The translations under genes were made by a program, and so were the position numbers. A DNA stretch of 64,000 nt from Streptomyces sp. NRRL WC-3742 (GTDB lineage: Bacteria; Actinomycetota; Actinomycetes; Streptomycetales; Streptomycetaceae): the NCBI RefSeq assembly GCF_000720635.1, contig NZ_JOCF01000046.1:1-64000 (forward strand), in the 5' to 3' direction. Every line of letters begins with the position of its first letter. Position 1 is the first letter of the stretch. The notes under the pieces were generated by a model. It saw nothing but the letters and a program-made list of their open reading frames with translations, did no database searches and had not been told where the DNA came from. Below are positions 25,768-35,158 of this stretch, piece after piece.

Positions 25768-27036
25768 TCAGTTGGCCGGGGCGGGTCGGCGGCGGGGGAG
25801 TTCGGCGCGGCGCAGGGTGGGGGAGCCGAGGAGGACGAGGAGGGCGAGGGTGGTGGAGGCGCCGCAGGTGGCGAAGACGGGGGCGACGCCCCAGGTGGCG
25901 ATGGCGGCGCCGACGAGGGGGTAGGCGAGGGGGGAGAGGCCGAGCATGGTCACCATGACGACGGAGGTGACGCGGCCGAGGTAGGCGGGGTCGGAGGCGG
26001 TCTGGATGAGGGTGTTGTCCAGGCTGCCGAAGACGCCTGCGGAGAGGCCAGCCAGGGCGGCGAGGGCGACGGCTTCCCAGAGGTCCGGGACGAGGCCGAG
26101 GCCGACGGCGGCCGCGCTGGTGACCAGGAGGGAGCCGGAGAGCATCAGTCCGGCGCGGGGGAGCCAGCCGGCTATGGCGAGCAGGGCGGCGCTCGCGGCG
26201 GCGCCGGCGCCGAAGGCGGAGACGATCCAGCCGTAGCCGGACGCGCCCCAGCCGCGTTCGGCGTTGAGCAGCACCATGCCGACGTTGAGGACGCTGTTGA
26301 GGCAGAGTTCGGCGACGGCTCCGGCGAGGACGAGCGGGCCGATGAGGCGGTGGCGGCGGATGTAGCGGAGCCCGTCGAGGAGGTCCTCGCGGGGTGTGCG
26401 CCTGGCGGGAGCGTCCTCGGTGGGGGCGGGGAGCGGGCGTACCCGGACGGTCAGGAGGAGGGGCAGGGAGAGGGCGAAGAGGACGCCCGCCGTGGTGAAG
26501 GCGGCGGCGGGGCCGCCGAGGGCCATGGCGAGGCCGCCGAGGGGTGGGCCGGCGATCTGGCCGACGCGCATGGCGAGGGAGCGCAGGCCCGTGACACGGG
26601 CGAGTTGGTCGGGGCCGGTGATGCGGGGCGGCAGGGCGCCGACGGCCGGGACGAACAGGGCGTCGACGGCGCCGAAGACCAGGGCGACGGTGACGAGGAG
26701 CCAGATCGCGGGGGTGGTCAGGGCGACGGCGGCGGCCACGGAGAGGATCAGCAGGCAGCGCAGGGCGTCGCTGCCGAGGATGACGCGGCGCGGGTCGAGG
26801 CGGTCGGCGAGGACGCCGCCGCCGAGCATGAGGACGGCCCGGGGGACGCCTCCGGCGGCCATGACCAGGCCGACCTCGGTGGGGCCGGCGGCGCGTTGGG
26901 CGGACCAGCCGAGGGCGAGGAAGTAGACGCTGTCGCCGACGAGGGAGGCGGTGTAGGCGCCGAGCCAGCGCAGGACGTTGCCGTCGCGGTGGGCGGGCGG
27001 GGTGAGGGGTGCTGGGATCTCTATGGTCGTGGGCAT
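25768..27036 (-). CDS. MFS transporter
   Basis: This 422-residue membrane protein has about twelve hydrophobic segments and the MFS loop GGVLADRLDPRRV between helices 2 and 3. It resembles the MFS_3/enterobactin-exporter-like DHA subfamily common in actinomycetes. It starts at ATG 27036, about 100 bases after the end of an ArsR-type regulator on the same strand, so the two probably form a unit in which the regulator controls efflux. The substrate is unknown, perhaps a drug or peptide. Confidence 0.87.
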   Translation of the reverse strand: MPTTIEIPAPLTPPAHRDGNVLRWLGAYTASLVGDSVYFLALGWSAQRAAGPTEVGLVMAAGGVPRAVLMLGGGVLADRLDPRRVILGSDALRCLLILSVAAAVALTTPAIWLLVTVALVFGAVDALFVPAVGALPPRITGPDQLARVTGLRSLAMRVGQIAGPPLGGLAMALGGPAAAFTTAGVLFALSLPLLLTVRVRPLPAPTEDAPARRTPREDLLDGLRYIRRHRLIGPLVLAGAVAELCLNSVLNVGMVLLNAERGWGASGYGWIVSAFGAGAAASAALLAIAGWLPRAGLMLSGSLLVTSAAAVGLGLVPDLWEAVALAALAGLSAGVFGSLDNTLIQTASDPAYLGRVTSVVMVTMLGLSPLAYPLVGAAIATWGVAPVFATCGASTTLALLVLLGSPTLRRAELPRRRPAPAN

Positions 27037-27133
27037 GACAGGCTCCAGTATGTGGTGGAGTGGAGGGGGTGCGCGGGCGCGGGCGGGAGTGCGCCCCGGC
27101 GGGGCTTGAGGGGTTTCTACGGGGCGGGGTCGG

Positions 27134-27775
27134 TCAGGGGCGGAACGGGAAGCCGTACAGGTAGGCGGACACGTGCGCGCGGTCCTCGGTGTCCCCGGCG
27201 GCCTTGGCGGCCAGGCCGTGCTCGCGCCAGCGGCGGGCGACCTCGTTCAACTCGTCGTTCATTTCGGCGAGTTCGGACGGAGTGAGGTCGAGAATCCACT
27301 CCGCCGCGAACGCCGCGTCCGTCCAGGCGGTGCCCCAGGCGGACGCCTGGGTGAGGTACTTGCGGTACTGGGCGACCCGGGCCTCGAGCAGGCCCCGGCC
27401 GACCGCCTCGATGGTGGCGGCGCCTTCGGGGGTGTCCGCGAAGTCCGACTCGCGGAAGCTCCAGCCGCCCTCGGAGGGCAGCTCCCACCAGCGTTCCCGG
27501 CCGTCGCCGCTGCGGCCCGTCGCCTCGACGACGAAGCCGAGCTCGGCGAGTTTGCGCAGGTGGTAGCTGACCAGTGAGGGCGCCAGTTCGGCCTGTTCGG
27601 CGAGCTGGGAGGCGGTCGCGGACCCGGCGGCGAAGAGCAGTCGGTAGAGCTGGACGCGCAGCGGGTTGGTGAACGCCTTCAGCTGGGAGAGCTCGGTGAT
27701 CCGGTCGGCGTGCGGCTGGGGCTGCGGCTGCGGCTCGGGCTGGGGCTGCGACTGGGGCTTCGGCTCGGCGGGCAT
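27134..27775 (-). CDS. ArsR/HTH_20-type regulator with proline-glutamine tail
   Basis: This 213-residue winged-helix protein has the helix-turn-helix LKAFTNPLRVQLYRLL ... ATASQLAEQAELAPSLVSYHLRKL, followed by a helical C-terminal domain. The N-terminus is a low-complexity QP-repeat stretch of about 17 residues, coded by a near-repetitive GGCTG/C tract prone to slippage. It lies upstream of the MFS gene on the same strand and probably represses it. An 8-base palindrome TTGCGCAA in the promoter (near 27804-27811) could be its operator. Confidence 0.87.
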   Translation of the reverse strand: MPAEPKPQSQPQPEPQPQPQPHADRITELSQLKAFTNPLRVQLYRLLFAAGSATASQLAEQAELAPSLVSYHLRKLAELGFVVEATGRSGDGRERWWELPSEGGWSFRESDFADTPEGAATIEAVGRGLLEARVAQYRKYLTQASAWGTAWTDAAFAAEWILDLTPSELAEMNDELNEVARRWREHGLAAKAAGDTEDRAHVSAYLYGFPFRP

Positions 27776-27838: not shown

Positions 27839-30631
27839 TCAGCTCAGGGTGGGCACCGACCCTCCGGGGGTGTGGGTGACCTCGACCCCCGGTAGGCCGC
27901 GCGACCATGCGGCCGTGATCGGCGCGAGCTGCGCCGCCGTGAGCGGCTCGGACCCGAGGCCGATGGCGAAGCGCGTCCGCCCGCCCGAGTGGAACGGCCT
28001 TGGCCAGGCGTGCAGTTGGCGCCCGCCCGCCTCCTCCAGCGCGGTGAGCAGGGCGCGCAGCCGGCCCCGGGCGAGGCCCACCGACTCCGGCTCGGCGGTC
28101 ACCACGGCCCAGGCCGCATGGCGCCGGTGCAGCGGCGGCGGGGTGAGCAACTCGGGCCACGGGTCGCGGAGTTCGGTGGCCAGCTGCCAGGCCCGGAAGA
28201 GTTCCTCGGCGAGCAGCTCCTGCATGTCGGCGCCGACCTGGGCGGTGCAGCTGCGGACCGGCGCCGAAGGGGTGAGGACGGTCAGGCCGTGGGAGGTGTC
28301 CGCCGCCTCGCCCTCCAGGCTCACCGCGCGGCGCCAGTCGTACGCGGCCCAGGTCCCGGCGAAGCTCGCGAACAGGTCGCCCTCGGGGGAGTCCGCGTCC
28401 AACACCGTCCGCGCCGCCAGCACCGACCAGGCCAGCGAGGGGAGTTGGCCGAACGGCGCCGAGTCCAGTCCGCGTGCCCGCCCCCACGCCTTCACCTGGC
28501 GGGCCAGCCGGACGAAGGCCGCGTGCCGCTCGCCGACCGCCGTCAGGATCGCCTCCGCGTCCGTGACGGCGCTCAGCGCGACGGCCGCCGCCTCGCCCAG
28601 CTCCGCCCTCCGTTCGACGGCGGTGGCGGGGTCGAGCGCGCCGGTGGGGACCACCGCGAGGTCCACCGTCAGGCCGTCCGCCTCCAGCCGCAGCCCCGGC
28701 ACCCGCGCGCCGCGCACCTCGTGCAGCCCCCGGGCCTGCGGCAGCGCCGCCGCGACCCGGGCGCGGACGGCGGGCAGGTCGGCCGCGCCGGGCAGAGCGG
28801 CGACCAGGTCGAGGTCGCCGTCGTCCAGCTGGCAGCCCATCCGGCGCGAGCCGACCGTACGGACCGCGCCATCCGGCAGCGCCGCCGCGATCAGCGAGGC
28901 CAACTCATGGGCAGCCAGCGATTGTTGGGGAGCCTCCCGCCGCAGCGAGACGGCGGGTGCGTCCGGTACGGCCGGGACCTCGCCCGTGCCCAGGGAGATC
29001 ACGGCGCGCGGACGCATCGGCTCCTCACCCCGGCGCGAGAGCACCACCAGCTCGCCCACCCGGGCGGTCACGCCCGTGAGCGCGGCCGCGCACTCGGCGG
29101 CCGTGCGCTGAGGGTCGGCGCTGCGGCCGAGGGTCAGGTGCGGCGTGAAGCCCTCGGCGCGGCCCCGGCAGCGGGGGAAGCGCCGCTCCAGGGCGTGCCG
29201 CAGCGCCGCCCACGGCGCGGCCTCGGAGGCGGCCGGGTCCAGCCAGAGCGTGGCGTCCTCGCGGTGGCCGAAAGTGTGTACCCCCTCCAGCCGGGTGGTG
29301 AACGGGGCGACCTCGGCGGCGGCCCGGGCGAGCAGCGGCAGGGCGCGCTCGAACTCCGACTCGGGGACGAAGCCGAACAGCAGGTTCACGTGCGGCGGCC
29401 AGCGGCGCACCTGGGGGTCGTGGGCCTCGCGCAGGCGCTGGATCGGCGGCCACAGCTCCTCCGGCGGCAGCCAGGCCACGGCGGTCCGCGCGGTGGGTGC
29501 GAGGTCGAGCACCTCGGCGTCCGAACCGCCGGCGAGGTCGAGGTCCACGACGAGACCGTAGTGGTCGGAGGGGTACAGCCCGTCCGCCGCCGGGCGCTCG
29601 CCGAGCAGCCCGGCCGAGGTGACCAGGGCGTCCCGGTGCAGCACCCGGTCCAGGCGGCCGGGGCGCCCGCTGAGGGAGGAGACGGCGGCCAGCGGATTGC
29701 GCGTCGGGTCGAAGGTGGGGGTGTCGTCCGAGGGGCCGTGCGCCTGCGTCCAGGCGTCGCGCAGGCCGAGGGCGGCGGCGGGGCCCTGCGGGCCGGAGCG
29801 GCCGTCGTTGAAGTCCCCGAGCAGGACGAGTTCGCACTCCACGCCCGCGAACCCCTCGGCGAGGCGGGCGAGTTCGTCCTGCCGCCGGGCCGCGCCGTCC
29901 GGCGAGTGGTCGCTGCTGAGGTGGACGGCGGCGACGGTCAGCGGCGCCGACCCGGCCTGGACGGTGACGGCGGCCACCGCCTTGTACGGGCCCAGCGCGT
30001 GCTGTCCGGCGGCCAGGACGGGCAGGCGGCTGAGCAGCAGCAGCCCGTACCGGTCGAGGTCCGGCGCCAGCGGGTCGAGGTGGAGGGTGTAGCGCTCCCG
30101 CACCCAGGGCGCGGCCGACAGTGCGGCGGCCAGCGCCGGTTCGACCTCCTGGAGGGCGATCACCTCGGCGTCGGCCGCCTCCAGCGCGGCGATCAGCAGC
30201 GGACGGCGGCGGCCGGTGGCGATCAGCTCGGCGTCGTAGCGGTCCCACAGGGTGTTCCAGGTGACCACCCGCAGCCGCTGCGCGGGAGAAGCCCCACCCG
30301 TGGAGGCGACCGGGCGCCAGCCGGAACCGGCCCGCCAGCCGTGCGGGACGGTTGCGGAGAAGAAGGGCGTGGGCAGCAGGCTCGGGTCGGTACGGCGCCC
30401 GGCCTCGGTGCGGTCGAGCACGTCCAGGCCCGTGTCGCGGTCCCACACCGGCACGCCGTCCGCCTCGACGAAGCGCACCCGGTGCCAGGGGACGTCCCCG
30501 GCGGCGGTGAACGCCTCCAGCGGGACGCGCTTGACGCGGTCGTCGCGCTGGCGCACGCCGAGGGTGAAGCGCGCCGGGTCGAAGCGGGCGTCCCAGCGGA
30601 TGCGCTGGCAGATCTGCTCGATGGGACGCAT
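27839..30631 (-). CDS. RNA-repair fusion: MJ1316 domain - EEP - 2H phosphoesterase - nucleotidyltransferase/poly(A) polymerase
   Basis: This 930-residue protein joins four RNA-end enzymes. Residues 1-75 match the MJ1316/DUF504 RNA-end-recognition domain. Residues 119-366 are an endonuclease/exonuclease/phosphatase domain: TWN (N126), QEVE (E162), GDFND (D273, N275) and SDH (D356, H357). Residues 385-555 are a 2H phosphoesterase with HVNLLFG (H414) and HLTLG (H498), the class that opens 2',3'-cyclic phosphates. From about 570 a polymerase-beta-type nucleotidyltransferase begins, with GSRR ... DGDLD (G594, S595, D606, D608), followed by a helical domain and C-terminal region as in eukaryotic poly(A) polymerase. 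It starts six bases after the RNA ligase-kinase gene ends. Likely role: trimming damaged RNA ends and rebuilding them before ligation. Confidence 0.85.
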
Positions 30632-30637
30632 CGGTCC

Positions 30638-32365
30638 TCAGTCCTCCTCGAGGTCGAGTGAGCCCGCCCTGTCCTCCACGGTGCCACGCGCGCCGACGTA
30701 CCAGGTGCGGTGGGCCTCCCCGGGGTACGGCGGCTGGTAGCGGTGCAGCTGCGCGGTGAGCACCTGCGCGGGCACCGGGTGGGGGCGGGTGGCGTTGCGG
30801 CGCTGGAGCTCGGCCTCGTCGACGATCATGACGGCCTGGGTGACCAGGGCGTCCCGGCGCTGCGCGACGCCCTGCACCAGGGAGCGCTGGTGGCGGTTGA
30901 GCGAGGTGGCGTCCCAGACGACGGTGGCGCCGGGGACGAGGGCGGCGGAGAGGCGGTCCAGGCCCTCGCGCAGCACGTCGGCGTTGTCGCGCTGGTCGGC
31001 GCGGGAGCCTCGGGCGGTGCGCAGGCCGTCCAGGGAGACCACCGTGTCGACGGCCCCGAGCGTGCCGGTGAAGGTGCTCTTGCCGCTGCCGGCGGGGCCG
31101 GTGAGCTGGATCAGCCGGGGGAATTCGCCGTCGCGCCAGCGCCAGGTGGCGGCCACGGCCTCGTCGGTGCGCTCGAGGCGGCCGAGCGCGTACGCCTCGC
31201 GGGCCTGGGCGTAGCAGCGGTCGGCGGCCTCGCGGCCGAGGTCGGCGAGGCTCTCGCGCAGGCCCTTGCGCAGCCCGTCCAGCGGGTCCGGGTCGAGGAG
31301 GGCGCCGGCGTCGGCGTGCAGCTCGGACCAGGCGACCTGTTGCTCCTCCTCCGGGCCGGGGGCGGTCAGGGCGGCGAGGGCGTGCAGGACCTCGAGGTCG
31401 GCGGCCTCGGACATCCGCACCAGCCCGGCGTACCGGTCCTCGTCGGGGTGGGGGCGGTGCAGCCGGGGGTGCAGGCCGACGAGGTCGGCGACCCTGCGGG
31501 CCAGCGGCAGGCCGAGGGTGCCGACCAGCCGGGGCGCCAGCTCCTCCCGGCGGGTGGCGCGCAGCACGGTGGCCAGGACGCCGGTCAGTCGGCGGTCCCC
31601 GGTGCGGCCGAGGGCGTCGAGGCGGTCCGAGATCTCGGCCAACTCGTGTTCAGGGCCGGGGAGTTCGTCGAGGCCCAGTGCTGTGGCCAGGGCGCCGGGG
31701 GCTGGGCGGGCGCCGCAGCGCACCGCCCACAGCGCGGCGGAGGGGCCGAGCCCGTTGGGCACCACGGCGGCGTGCATCCAGTGGGTGTCGGTGCGCACGT
31801 GCCGGGGGCGCACCCACTTGGCGATCCGCTCGCCGAACTCGGCCCGGGGGAAGCCCTGGACGGTGCGGAGGACGTACCCCTCCTGCCGGTCCAGGTCGAG
31901 GCTCGACGCGAGGGACCGCAGCGCGCGTTCGTCGTACCGGCCGCGCCAGAGCACCCGGGGTGTCGGGAGGCCCGCGCGGCGCAGGAAGCGGACGGTGGTG
32001 TCCCAGTCCAGGCAGGCGTCCCGCTCGTTCCAGACCGAGAAACCGTAGAACCAGCTCTCCAGATCGTCGTACGGGATCGAGTGCCGGGCGTACATGTTCT
32101 CCCCGCTGACGCGCCAGCCGGGCGGGATCAGGCGGCCGATGCGGCCGTGCAGCTCCTTCACCCAGGCGCGGGAGGGGTGGTGGGCGGAGTCGAGGGAGCG
32201 GGCGTGCAGGCCCTCGCGGTAGAGGGTGGTGTTCTCGCCGTCGAGCTTCTCGGTGACGACGACCTCGGCCCCGGCGAGTCCGGAGAGGTCCCCGGTCCGT
32301 ACGTCGTCCGCCGTGGCGCCCGGCGACCAGGGCAGGTGCGGCGTCCTCGGGTACTGCACGCGCAT
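30638..32365 (-). CDS. RNA ligase - polynucleotide kinase fusion
   Basis: This 575-residue protein has an Rnl2-like RNA ligase domain at 1-210: Lys40 in EKLDGEN is the AMP-accepting lysine, SGENMYARHSI is motif III, EGYVLR (162-167) motif IV and AKWVR (182-186) motif V. A helical linker (210-410) follows. Residues 413-575 are a P-loop kinase with GPAGSGKS (423-430), SLDGLR and WDATSLNR, as in T4-type polynucleotide 5'-kinases. Kinase and ligase in one chain allow phosphorylation of a 5'-OH and sealing to a 3'-OH. It is the first gene of a two-gene operon with the end-processing fusion. Start ATG 32365. No toxin or sensor gene adjoins it. Confidence 0.88.
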   Translation of the reverse strand: MRVQYPRTPHLPWSPGATADDVRTGDLSGLAGAEVVVTEKLDGENTTLYREGLHARSLDSAHHPSRAWVKELHGRIGRLIPPGWRVSGENMYARHSIPYDDLESWFYGFSVWNERDACLDWDTTVRFLRRAGLPTPRVLWRGRYDERALRSLASSLDLDRQEGYVLRTVQGFPRAEFGERIAKWVRPRHVRTDTHWMHAAVVPNGLGPSAALWAVRCGARPAPGALATALGLDELPGPEHELAEISDRLDALGRTGDRRLTGVLATVLRATRREELAPRLVGTLGLPLARRVADLVGLHPRLHRPHPDEDRYAGLVRMSEAADLEVLHALAALTAPGPEEEQQVAWSELHADAGALLDPDPLDGLRKGLRESLADLGREAADRCYAQAREAYALGRLERTDEAVAATWRWRDGEFPRLIQLTGPAGSGKSTFTGTLGAVDTVVSLDGLRTARGSRADQRDNADVLREGLDRLSAALVPGATVVWDATSLNRHQRSLVQGVAQRRDALVTQAVMIVDEAELQRRNATRPHPVPAQVLTAQLHRYQPPYPGEAHRTWYVGARGTVEDRAGSLDLEED

Positions 32366-32439
32366 CTGTCGCCCCCCGTGTCGGTCCTTGATCCGCCGAC
32401 ACTGTAGGAGCTGCCCGACCCGTCCGACCAGCGAATTAA

Positions 32440-32479: not shown

Positions 32480-35158
32480 TCAGTCGTCTCCGTGGATCAG
32501 GCGGAGGGAGAAGCCCTGGTCGGTGGACACCTTCGCGGTCTTGACCTCGGTGAGGCCCGTGGCCTCGTCGTAGTACCAGCCGGACTCGGCGGTATCGAGC
32601 TCGGCCGCCGAGTCGAGCTGCGGCAGCGGGCCGCCGGAGGTGGCGACGAGGCTGGGAGCGGCCTGGCCGTGGACCGTGAACCGGTAGCCGCGCGCCTCCG
32701 GCTTGCCCGTGTAACTTCCTTCGCTGGCACCGACCTTGACGGTGGTGACGGCCGGGTTCGCGTCGACGTCGACGCGCTGGGTGGCCGAGGCTCCGCCCGT
32801 GTGCTGCCGGGTGACGCCGTCGTCCTCGTACAGGGTGTAGGTGGCGGAGCCCTGCTCCGACGGGTAGAGGTCGTAGTCGAGTTCGCCCCGGTCCCGGCTC
32901 TCCCAGGACAGCGTGCCCTTGGGCCACATCGGCACGATCGCGCCGCCCCGGACGAACAGCGGGAGGGTGTCGAGCGGCGCCGCGTAGTCGTTGATCGTGG
33001 TCGGGCCCTGGTAGGTGCGCCCCGTCCAGTAGTCCGTCCAGGTGCCGGCCGGGACGTAGATGCCGTTGCGCACCGAGGTGTCGGAGTAGACCGGCGCGAC
33101 CAGGAAGTCCGGCCCGGCCAGGAACTCGTACTTCGCGTCCGGGCCGAGCGCCGCCGGGTCGTCCGGGTACTCCAGGGCGAGCGGGCGCACCGCGCCGATG
33201 CCCGTACGGGTGGCCTCCGCCGAGAGGGTGTACATGTACGGCAGCAGCCGCTCCTTGAGCTGGAGGTACTTGCGGTTGATCGACGTGTACGGCTCGCCGT
33301 CCAGCCAGGGCTGCTGGTCGCGCTGCTGGGTGCCGGTCGTGTCCCGGGCCCAGCCGTCCATGGTCATGATGGCGGGCAGGAACGCCTTCCACTGGAGGTC
33401 GCGGGTGTACATCTTCGGGTCGCGGCGGTAGATCGAGCCCACGTCGCCGGTGTTGTAGGCGATGCCGGACATCGTGGCGCCCGCGTAGGTGGGGATCTGC
33501 CAGCGGATGTAGTCCCAGGACAGGCTCTGGTCGCCGCTCCACAGCACGCCGCAGCGCTGGGCACCGGCCCAGGAGACGGGCAGCCAGACGAAGCCGCGGG
33601 CGTCGCTGTTGTCCTCGATACCGGCCTTGGCCTGGTCGCAGGCGTTGAGCGCGAAGTCGTAGCCGTTGCCGACCCAGGCCACGTCGAGCTTGCGCACCCG
33701 CACGCCGGCCTTGACCTCCTTGGCCTGGTTGGGCAGGCCGTTCTGCGTCCACAGGCCGAGCTGGGCGTGGTCCTTCCTCAGGCCCGTGCCGGTCTGGGGG
33801 AGGTTCTCGTAGCCGCAGCCGTAGCCGTCGTTGACGAGCATCCAGCCGAGCGGCATCTGCTGCTGCACGTACCCGTCGGCGATCTTGACGGCGTCGAGGG
33901 TGTGGCGCTCGCCGCGGTTGGCGTTGTGGAGGTAGCAGTCGGAGTCGCCGGGCTCCAGGCCGTAGACGGGCGGCATGAACGGCTTGCCGACCAGGGAGGT
34001 GTACTGGCCGATGACCTTCTTGACGTCGCCGGTGAAGTAGTAGGCGTCCAGGCGCTGTTCCTGCTGGCCGGTGCGCACAGGCGAGCCGAAGTCGTAGAGG
34101 CCCGGGGCGAAGGTGTTGCGGAAGACGCCGTAGCCGGCGGTGGAGACGTAGAAGGGCTGGGAGTTGTTGTAGCCGCCCTCGTCCCAGTCGAAGCTGTTGG
34201 AGACGTGGACGGCGTGGTCGCGGTGCGAGAAGGAGCCGTTCTGCTCGCCGCCGCCGAAGAACTGCTCCTCGGCGCCGCGCTGGAGGCTCTGGCGCATGCC
34301 GCTGGTGCTCCAGCGCAGCGGGGCGTCCTCCTGCCAGATCGCGGTGCGGTCGTCGGCGCGGTAGAGGCCGAAGCGCAGCGGGTGCTTGTAGACGCGCAGC
34401 ACCAGGTCGTGGGCGTGGACGGCGTAGTACGCGCCGGTGTCCACCGACCAGGTGTCGGACCGGAGTTCGGGCTGCTTGCGGATGATGGTGCTGCCGGCCG
34501 GGTCGGTGAACACACCGTCCGGGGCGGCGCGCAGGCGGAGCTGGTCGTCGGCGAGGAAGTCGACCTTGGCCTTGAGGGAGCCCGCGCCGATGTCGTAGCT
34601 GCCCTGGCCGCCGGAGAAGGAGGTGAGGTCCCCGGCGTCGGCGGTCACCGGGAGGTGGGCGCGGCCGGTGAAGGAGCCGCCGCGCACGTCGTACGGGACG
34701 ACGAGGACGTGGTAGGTGCCGGACGCCTTGGGGATGACGGTGGCCTCCGGGTCGGCGGTGCCCGCGCTGGAGGCGACCTGCTTGCCGGCGGAGTCGAAGA
34801 CGTAGAGGTCGAAGTCCTCGGCGGGGTTCTGCCACTGGACGGAGAGCGGGACTCCGCCCTCCGGGTTGTCGTTCCAGTAGCCCGCGGGGACGTTCACGGT
34901 CAGGTCGAAGCGGGCGCAGACCGCGCCGTCCGCGTCCTGGGGGGCGGGCGGGCAGGAGTTGGCGCCGCCGAGGGTGCCCTTGGCGTACTGCGGGCTCTGC
35001 CAGGTGACGCTCCGGTGGTCCTGGTCGAGGACGGCGGCGGGGGTGCCGGCGGCCCGGGCCGGGAGGACGGGACCGGCGAGGGCGGTGATGCTGCTCAGGG
35101 CCGCGACGAGAGCGGCCCGGCGCAGGCGGGGGCGGGGGCGGGGGCGGGGTAAACGCAC
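32480..35158 (-). CDS. Secreted glycoside hydrolase family 31 enzyme
   Basis: This 892-residue exported enzyme has a signal peptide ending ARA, a beta-rich N-terminal pre-peptidase-like domain (about 75-165), the GH31 galactose-mutarotase-like N domain, the catalytic barrel and a C-terminal beta region. The nucleophile Asp lies in KLDVAWVGNGY near residue 490 rather than in the usual WxDMNE, and SGDQS supplies the probable acid/base. This variant motif points to the branch with isomaltosyl- or alternan-related transferases and dextran-acting enzymes rather than ordinary alpha-glucosidases. It is downstream of a binding protein and two permeases, so it probably frees or builds the sugar those proteins import. 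Confidence 0.87.
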   Translation of the reverse strand: MRLPRPRPRPRLRRAALVAALSSITALAGPVLPARAAGTPAAVLDQDHRSVTWQSPQYAKGTLGGANSCPPAPQDADGAVCARFDLTVNVPAGYWNDNPEGGVPLSVQWQNPAEDFDLYVFDSAGKQVASSAGTADPEATVIPKASGTYHVLVVPYDVRGGSFTGRAHLPVTADAGDLTSFSGGQGSYDIGAGSLKAKVDFLADDQLRLRAAPDGVFTDPAGSTIIRKQPELRSDTWSVDTGAYYAVHAHDLVLRVYKHPLRFGLYRADDRTAIWQEDAPLRWSTSGMRQSLQRGAEEQFFGGGEQNGSFSHRDHAVHVSNSFDWDEGGYNNSQPFYVSTAGYGVFRNTFAPGLYDFGSPVRTGQQEQRLDAYYFTGDVKKVIGQYTSLVGKPFMPPVYGLEPGDSDCYLHNANRGERHTLDAVKIADGYVQQQMPLGWMLVNDGYGCGYENLPQTGTGLRKDHAQLGLWTQNGLPNQAKEVKAGVRVRKLDVAWVGNGYDFALNACDQAKAGIEDNSDARGFVWLPVSWAGAQRCGVLWSGDQSLSWDYIRWQIPTYAGATMSGIAYNTGDVGSIYRRDPKMYTRDLQWKAFLPAIMTMDGWARDTTGTQQRDQQPWLDGEPYTSINRKYLQLKERLLPYMYTLSAEATRTGIGAVRPLALEYPDDPAALGPDAKYEFLAGPDFLVAPVYSDTSVRNGIYVPAGTWTDYWTGRTYQGPTTINDYAAPLDTLPLFVRGGAIVPMWPKGTLSWESRDRGELDYDLYPSEQGSATYTLYEDDGVTRQHTGGASATQRVDVDANPAVTTVKVGASEGSYTGKPEARGYRFTVHGQAAPSLVATSGGPLPQLDSAAELDTAESGWYYDEATGLTEVKTAKVSTDQGFSLRLIHGDD

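Follow-up and report, generated by a model that had tools for sequence, protein, structure and literature searches.

The window analysed here is a stretch of 64,000 nucleotides from Streptomyces sp. NRRL WC-3742 (assembly GCF_000720635.1, contig NZ_JOCF01000046.1, positions 1 to 64,000 of the forward strand), and its subject is a pair of minus-strand genes, B and A, predicted to act in RNA repair. Both open reading frames lie where a preliminary description of the window had placed them, six bases apart, and the source genome (8.74 Mb in 233 contigs) holds a single PF04457 copy, the MJ1316 domain of gene A. That description read the locus as an RNA end-healing and sealing operon, a prediction that the present analysis supports as regards an operon with this domain set (Table 1). 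The set is real, widespread, largely foreseen and already annotated as RNA repair; the pair may indeed be little studied, as had been claimed, but that remark was overstated for a set so common and already labelled RNA repair in databases. To the extent that this could be checked, the novelty lies in the fusion of a ligase with an HD-Pnk whose phosphatase has decayed beside A, and in the promoter ahead of B. A literature search met no description of the B-A pair or of the promoter, within openly licensed literature and with no claim of absence in print. On balance, we favour reading B and A as a pair that mends RNA breaks, carries a decayed HD domain and is possibly induced by translation stress.

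Table 1. Features of the B-A operon in the window
Feature	Position	Strand	Description
Promoter-like block	32400..32439	-	TTAATT-CGC-TGGTCG-N18-TACAGT; conserved ahead of B in relatives
Gene B	30638..32365	-	575 aa: RNA ligase, then degenerate HD domain, then 5'-OH polynucleotide kinase
Ligase domain	31811..32266	-	B residues 34-185; AMP lysine K40 in EKLDGEN; Pfam RNA_ligase 3.5e-33
Degenerate HD phosphohydrolase	31148..31762	-	B residues about 202-406; helical in model
5'-OH polynucleotide kinase domain	30662..31123	-	B residues 415-568
Gene A	27839..30631	-	930 aa: MJ1316, EEP, 2H and poly(A)-polymerase-like domains, in that order
MJ1316 domain	30437..30631	-	A residues 1-65; Pfam 7.3e-19
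EEP domain	29528..30286	-	A residues 116-368; TDP2-like fold
2H phosphoesterase	29024..29467	-	A residues 389-536, HVN...HLT; Pfam 2.6e-34
Poly(A) polymerase module of canonical type, RNA-binding domain included	27848..28957	-	A residues 559-928

Domains of the two chains

Pfam assigns RNA_ligase and AAA_33 to B, the former (PF09414) with 115.6 bits against a cut-off of 27. The ligase motifs and the AMP lysine are in place, K40, D42, G43, E89, E162 and K183 being invariant in 43/43 rows. Residues 1-206 share 57 and 66% identity with two Deinococcus ligases. In a tblastn search of plasmids these residues match a 210-aa protein of Deinococcus radiodurans plasmid MP1, which is identified as DRB0100 (56.8% identity) because its start and its K40 agree with the primer and the mutant described for that protein (PMC1997131). 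An assignment of the B ligase to DraRnl (DRB0094) was rejected, as the alignment shows DRB0100. The kinase half of B matches the next gene but one after the MP1 ligase gene, taken as the HD-Pnk DRB0098 because its residues 81-82 read HD, as the same paper states (PMC1997131). In another Deinococcus the ligase and HD-Pnk genes are adjacent, and the kinase side of B is 33-34% identical to the Deinococcus HD-Pnks from residue 273 to 555 or 568.

In a profile alignment by hhalign, residues 202-571 of B correspond to residues 7-384 of HD-Pnk (99.8%, E 3e-28), which shows that the HD and kinase regions share their origin with that enzyme; B is therefore a DRB0100-type ligase joined to an HD-Pnk in a single chain. 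Structure matches in the PDB cover the kinase only, and the kinship of the middle domain was judged by hhalign instead. This middle domain (residues about 202-406) had been missed by the preliminary description, whose named domains were otherwise all found by profiles, PAP_central under its cut-off. The Pfam HD profile matches both Deinococcus HD-Pnks and, at E 0.1, none of the 43 fused B proteins. As to the metal-ligand set of HD-Pnk, HxEGD...H is absent from 65/65 fused B, the His of HD survives in 50/65, and the HD dipeptide is in place in 6/65 and reads RA in the window. With the first motif lost, the dipeptide mostly lost and no Pfam HD match, the ancestral 3'-phosphatase site of B is judged degenerate. 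The kinase carries a P-loop, an Asp that we take to be the phosphoacceptor and an Arg presumed to lie in the lid.

In A, Pfam finds MJ1316 (PF04457; 68.7 bits, cut-off 26.3, positions 1-75 of 75), Exo_endo_phos (70.5 bits, cut-off 24.5) and 2_5_RNA_ligase2 (118.9 bits, cut-off 27). The EEP motifs N, E, H, D/N and SDH are invariant in 39 rows, and in fold this domain comes closest to TDP2. The 2H residues H414 and H498 are likewise invariant in 39 rows; both His are found in 79/79 relatives, and the second motif is HxT/S in 78/79. In the nucleotidyltransferase, G594, S595, D606 and D657 are invariant in 39 rows and D608 is kept in 78/79, so that the GS and three catalytic Asp of a canonical poly(A) polymerase (PAP) are present, as is a C-terminal RNA-binding domain. 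PAP_central scores 20.4 bits on the window protein, below its cut-off of 27.1, and matches 38/38 rows at E 0.01 (best 2.7e-13). The module is called PAP-like because of this sub-threshold score, though all its catalytic residues are kept. A search with A gave 1310 proteins passing E 0.001 among 7992 scored candidates; among the matches listed, MJ1316, EEP and 2H are all present in 120/120, and the nearest other protein, from a Kitasatospora, is 90% identical. The literature search met no Streptomyces poly(A) polymerase.

Among known systems, the Deinococcus DRB0100/DRB0099/DRB0098 operon has the same ligase (57% identity) and a related ligase-then-kinase order. It differs in its separate genes, its intact HD and the macro-like DRB0099 between them, whereas here ligase and kinase are fused, the HD is degenerate and the partner is A; in the two Deinococcus stretches read, one of them 14.6 kb long, the annotation shows no A-like gene next to DRB0100. 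Burroughs and Aravind 2016 reportedly surveyed bacterial RNA repair, describing a syntax of ligase, end-modifying enzyme and nucleotidyltransferase with MJ1316 as a cyclic-end recognition domain; the present locus appears to share that syntax, to which the HD decay and the promoter are added here. MJ1316 is also cited as an RNA cyclic-end recognition domain in a further source (PMC6514570). The Rtc operon (RtcB/RtcA) likewise seals RNA ends in bacteria, but RtcB occurs in 198/200 Streptomycetaceae with or without A, and Pfam finds neither an RtcB nor an RtcA domain in A or B. Bacterial Pnkp/Hen1 and T4 Pnkp-Rnl1 reportedly use a calcineurin or HAD phosphatase where the present pair has 2H and EEP, and Pfam finds no methyltransferase domain in A or B.

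Co-occurrence of the pair and decay of the HD site

A contig scan of genomes yielded 219 relatives of A, of which 80 were retained for locus comparison. The neighbour survey that had been proposed as a check bears the pairing out: B lies immediately upstream of A in 76/80 loci, 47 of these pairs showing a one-base overlap (measured from alignment ends), and no third conserved neighbour was found across the 80 loci with a crude gene caller. The four loci lacking B come from three Catellatospora and one Streptomyces.

The pair is patchy among soil actinobacteria. With PF04457 as the marker of A, and B called at E 1e-20, a sample of 200 Streptomycetaceae has A in 62 genomes, B in 61 and both in 60; one has a ligase-like match only and 137 have neither marker. 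The 60 were counted by match, and include G435, with internal deletions in both genes, and G431, whose B has one stop. The two PF04457 genomes without B (G363, G437) encode MJ1316 and 2H only, without EEP core or nucleotidyltransferase. A classical HD-Pnk was found in one of the 200, the PF04457-negative G304. Across a 296-genome sample of the phylum, PF04457 occurs in two and B in three, the third being a ligase-only match. In the family of Catellatospora (131 genomes) PF04457 occurs in 29, accompanied by fused B in 10, by a separate HD-Pnk operon in 16 and by another DRB0100-like ligase in two (G519, G527), while one (G554) has a PF04457 fragment only. A DRB0100-like or fused ligase of some kind thus accompanies 28/29; HD-Pnk is absent from 10/10 fused-B genomes of the family. 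The 102 PF04457-negative members have HD-Pnk in 19 and a ligase match in 12, one shared, so that 30/102 hold some such ligase.

The split HD-Pnks allow the state of the HD domain to be compared with the presence of A. Without A, HD is intact in 19/19 readable genomes, from 20 examined (19 of the Catellatospora family, the frame of G509 being broken, plus G304). With A, it is intact in 10/16 and lost in 6/16 (G506, G585, G596, G604, G610, G613), a difference with a Fisher value of 0.005 that, like the Fisher values for co-occurrence, ignores kinship. A tree of the kinase half (35 rows, without G509) requires two HD losses, also when supported branches alone are used. In the six genomes 18 tested A residues are conserved, two genomes having S at T500; the A alignment of four of the six stops near residue 740. 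Adding the fused lineage, with its DRB0100-type ligase, gives three apparent HD decays, each in genomes with A. This pattern suggests that A probably took over 3'-end healing, whereupon the HD phosphatase became dispensable.

Promoter and proposed repair pathway

The stretches upstream of B share a block, TTATTCGnTGGA-N17-CCTACAGTGAC, whose total information over 65 sequences, the window included, is 25.1 bits compared with 8.3-8.7 in five shuffled controls. Promoters activated by WblC follow the consensus GAAAWY, 3 bp, TKGMNN, 16-19 bp, TANNNT (PMC7157823), and the predicted B promoter resembles this WblC/WhiB7 pattern. Under a strict test that asks for an exact -35, -10 and spacing together with a minimum of 3/6 letters of the AT motif within 150 nt, the layout appears ahead of 50/65 B genes, 11/990 neighbour genes of the same loci and 4/1300 shuffles. 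Demanding 4/6 AT letters leaves 35, 5 and 1, respectively, and 5/6 leaves 16, 0 and 0; the matches cover 11 genera. In most relatives a promoter of this layout precedes the pair, so that inhibition of translation probably induces it. The same layout points to translation-inhibitor stress rather than to the defence against toxins or phage that had been suggested earlier. Such a defence role is possible, yet nothing found points there, PADLOC-DB having no family for A and giving B only a weak P-loop match to JetC (E 0.005).

From the domains, residues, homology, HD decay, co-occurrence and promoter layout, all read from sequence, we infer the enzymatic steps, their order, the RNA substrate and the inducer as follows. 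A ribonuclease or other damage would leave a 2',3'-cyclic phosphate and a 5'-OH. The MJ1316 domain of A would hold the cyclic end, its 2H domain would open it to a monophosphate, its EEP domain would clear the remaining phosphate or end block, and its poly(A)-polymerase module could restore lost nucleotides; B would then phosphorylate the 5'-OH and seal. B would derive from a ligase and HD-Pnk pair like DRB0100/DRB0098 in Deinococcus, whose HD 3'-phosphatase, with A present, may have become needless and decayed. Ranked by support, 5' phosphorylation and adenylylation by B (residues and folds) would come before 3' healing by the 2H and EEP domains of A (residues and HD decay), and this before nucleotide addition by PAP (fold). 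By exclusion, EEP is the candidate for removing a linear phosphate, and ANGEL2 is a precedent for an EEP phosphatase. ANGEL2-type EEPs were not among the fold matches of this domain, which excludes nothing; the fold lists barely probe the MJ1316, 2H and ligase domains. Because the EEP fold is nearest TDP2, the trimming of damaged ends proposed in the preliminary description becomes one option only. In phage repair, a similar logic has 2H enzymes clear cyclic ends, phosphatases linear ones and nucleotidyltransferases restore lost bases (PMC7824862).

Several observations weigh against this reading. In published experiments DRB0100 formed an AMP adduct and joined neither DNA nor RNA, and DRB0100, DRB0098 and DRB0099 together joined no DNA; the authors proposed a missing partner (PMC1997131). 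The earlier claim of ligation by B thus keeps its AMP-lysine motifs, but the closest studied ligase takes AMP and joined nothing, which makes sealing the weakest step. The catalytic residues that had been called present are kept in relatives, except that the first 2H motif is HxN, not HxS/T, in 77/79. Ten of the 16 A-positive split HD-Pnks retain HD, so that A permits and does not force its loss, and only two independent losses were counted among split HD-Pnks, a small number of events. Gene A also occurs alone: Streptomyces ISL-96 (L039) has A with no B or ligase match genome-wide and a weak kinase match only, and in Calothrix no annotated ligase lies within 6 kb of A, with 6/16 neighbours scanned.

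The promoter is open to objections of its own. The layout fails in 15/65 B, among them the window, whose copy has TGGT for TGGM, one -35 letter off. The 65 B sequences are related to one another, and the 990 controls include intra-operon genes and rough start calls. Where -35, -10 and spacing are exact, the AT motif reaches at least 3/6 in 50/50 B and 11/25 controls, and 4/6 in 35/50 and 5/25. In a region of 200 nt upstream plus 30 nt of the gene (65 nt only for two split ligases), the layout was found in 3/19 lone A genes, 0/36 split ligases and 2/6 fused B fetched from the Catellatospora family, counts that associate it with the fused pair, chiefly beyond that family.

Beyond the favoured pairing, we regard a bolder extension as tentative, in which A is a self-contained, exchangeable 3'-healing and tailing module that serves varied Rnl/Pnk systems and frees them of the need for an HD phosphatase, and in which the fused pair, as a member of the WblC/WhiB7 response, mends broken tRNA or rRNA and so contributes to the resistance of actinobacteria to antibiotics that target translation. 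If the link to WblC is true, RNA repair would take its place beside ribosome rescue and drug export in intrinsic resistance to translation inhibitors. In either form the domain list becomes a set of testable claims, above all as to which domain is the 3'-phosphatase, and raises the questions of why a bacterial repair protein should carry a poly(A) polymerase of eukaryotic type and which stress calls for RNA repair in actinobacteria.

Other fates of the broken ends would use the same domains differently. The order of ligase, kinase and 2H cyclic phosphodiesterase along the operon recalls Trl1, and a route of the plant and fungal type would have 2H leave a 2'-phosphate, B seal past it and KptA/Tpt1 remove it at the junction, with EEP and PAP otherwise used. 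KptA is present in 62/62 PF04457-positive and 121/138 other genomes (p 0.002, uncorrected for kinship); the link is weak because KptA is near universal in Streptomycetaceae (183/200). Trl1 is moreover a single chain, whereas here there are two, with MJ1316, EEP and PAP besides, and the ligase of B is DRB0100-like, with a weak fold match to the Naegleria nick-sealing ligase (Trl1 itself lay outside this comparison). We consider such a route unlikely. Somewhat lower still we place a triage in which the PAP module tails healed but unsalvageable fragments for degradation, with only a share of the RNA rescued by B. A complete PAP of canonical type, RNA-binding domain included, does seem more than single-nucleotide repair needs, but the close pairing of A with a ligase argues that sealing is the main outcome.

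The pair might instead mend DNA breaks, since the EEP is closest to TDP2 in fold. MJ1316, 2H and PAP domains, however, have been met mostly in studies of RNA. Irradiation strongly induces the operon of the Deinococcus relatives (DRB0098-0100), in which DRB0098 acts as a kinase on 5'-OH ends; against this stands the failure of DRB0100 to join DNA (PMC1997131). This is the least probable of the alternatives, and the RNA break-repair pair remains our preferred reading.

Relatives on other replicons and neighbouring genes

A four-domain A-like protein, 29% identical and confirmed by Pfam, is encoded on a Calothrix conjugative plasmid (L094, AP018209), where it adjoins a gene for a dynamin-like GTPase. 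Viral matches (two viral loci and 30 phage records) concern the ligase part only, none covering 80% of B, and no viral contig with A was found. Among the best 10 of the 30 phage records (H1-H10), jumbo phages carry DRB0100-like ligases with 47-52% identity over about 205 residues and without the kinase half.

Short MJ1316-2H proteins without EEP core or nucleotidyltransferase, in a layout that we take to be LENG9-like, occur at L176:3749-4570 (G363), L177 (G437) and L179 (G431) and in the plasmid hits H35-H38; that of L176 was translated in full (273 aa) and the others were judged from matches. G379 holds a second PF04457 copy, judged by frame length only, and the locus of G435 (L178) is a decaying copy of the pair. 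At L149 and L152-L157 a DRB0100-like ligase lies near a kinase of 298-401 aa, which in L149 bears a C-terminal HAD-like DIDGT motif. RtcB was considered as a replacement ligase in Catellatospora and dropped because it is near universal in the Streptomycetaceae sample; in L028 and L074 an RtcB-like gene (by eye) and A are 1.4-3.4 kb apart.

The commonest neighbours of B-A are ribosomal genes: in 15/80 loci (e.g. L046) genes named by eye as S10-region ribosomal-protein genes adjoin the pair on the opposite strand, and in 10 of these a tuf-like gene, also judged by eye, lies on the other side. A DeoR/WYL-like regulator gene (by eye) stands upstream of B on the opposite strand in 7/80 loci (e.g. 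L051:6337-7524). In the window itself, genes identified by eye as glycoside-hydrolase-like (32480-35158) and as ArsR-like and MFS-like (25768-27775) flank the operon upstream and downstream, respectively, outside the clusters common to most relatives.

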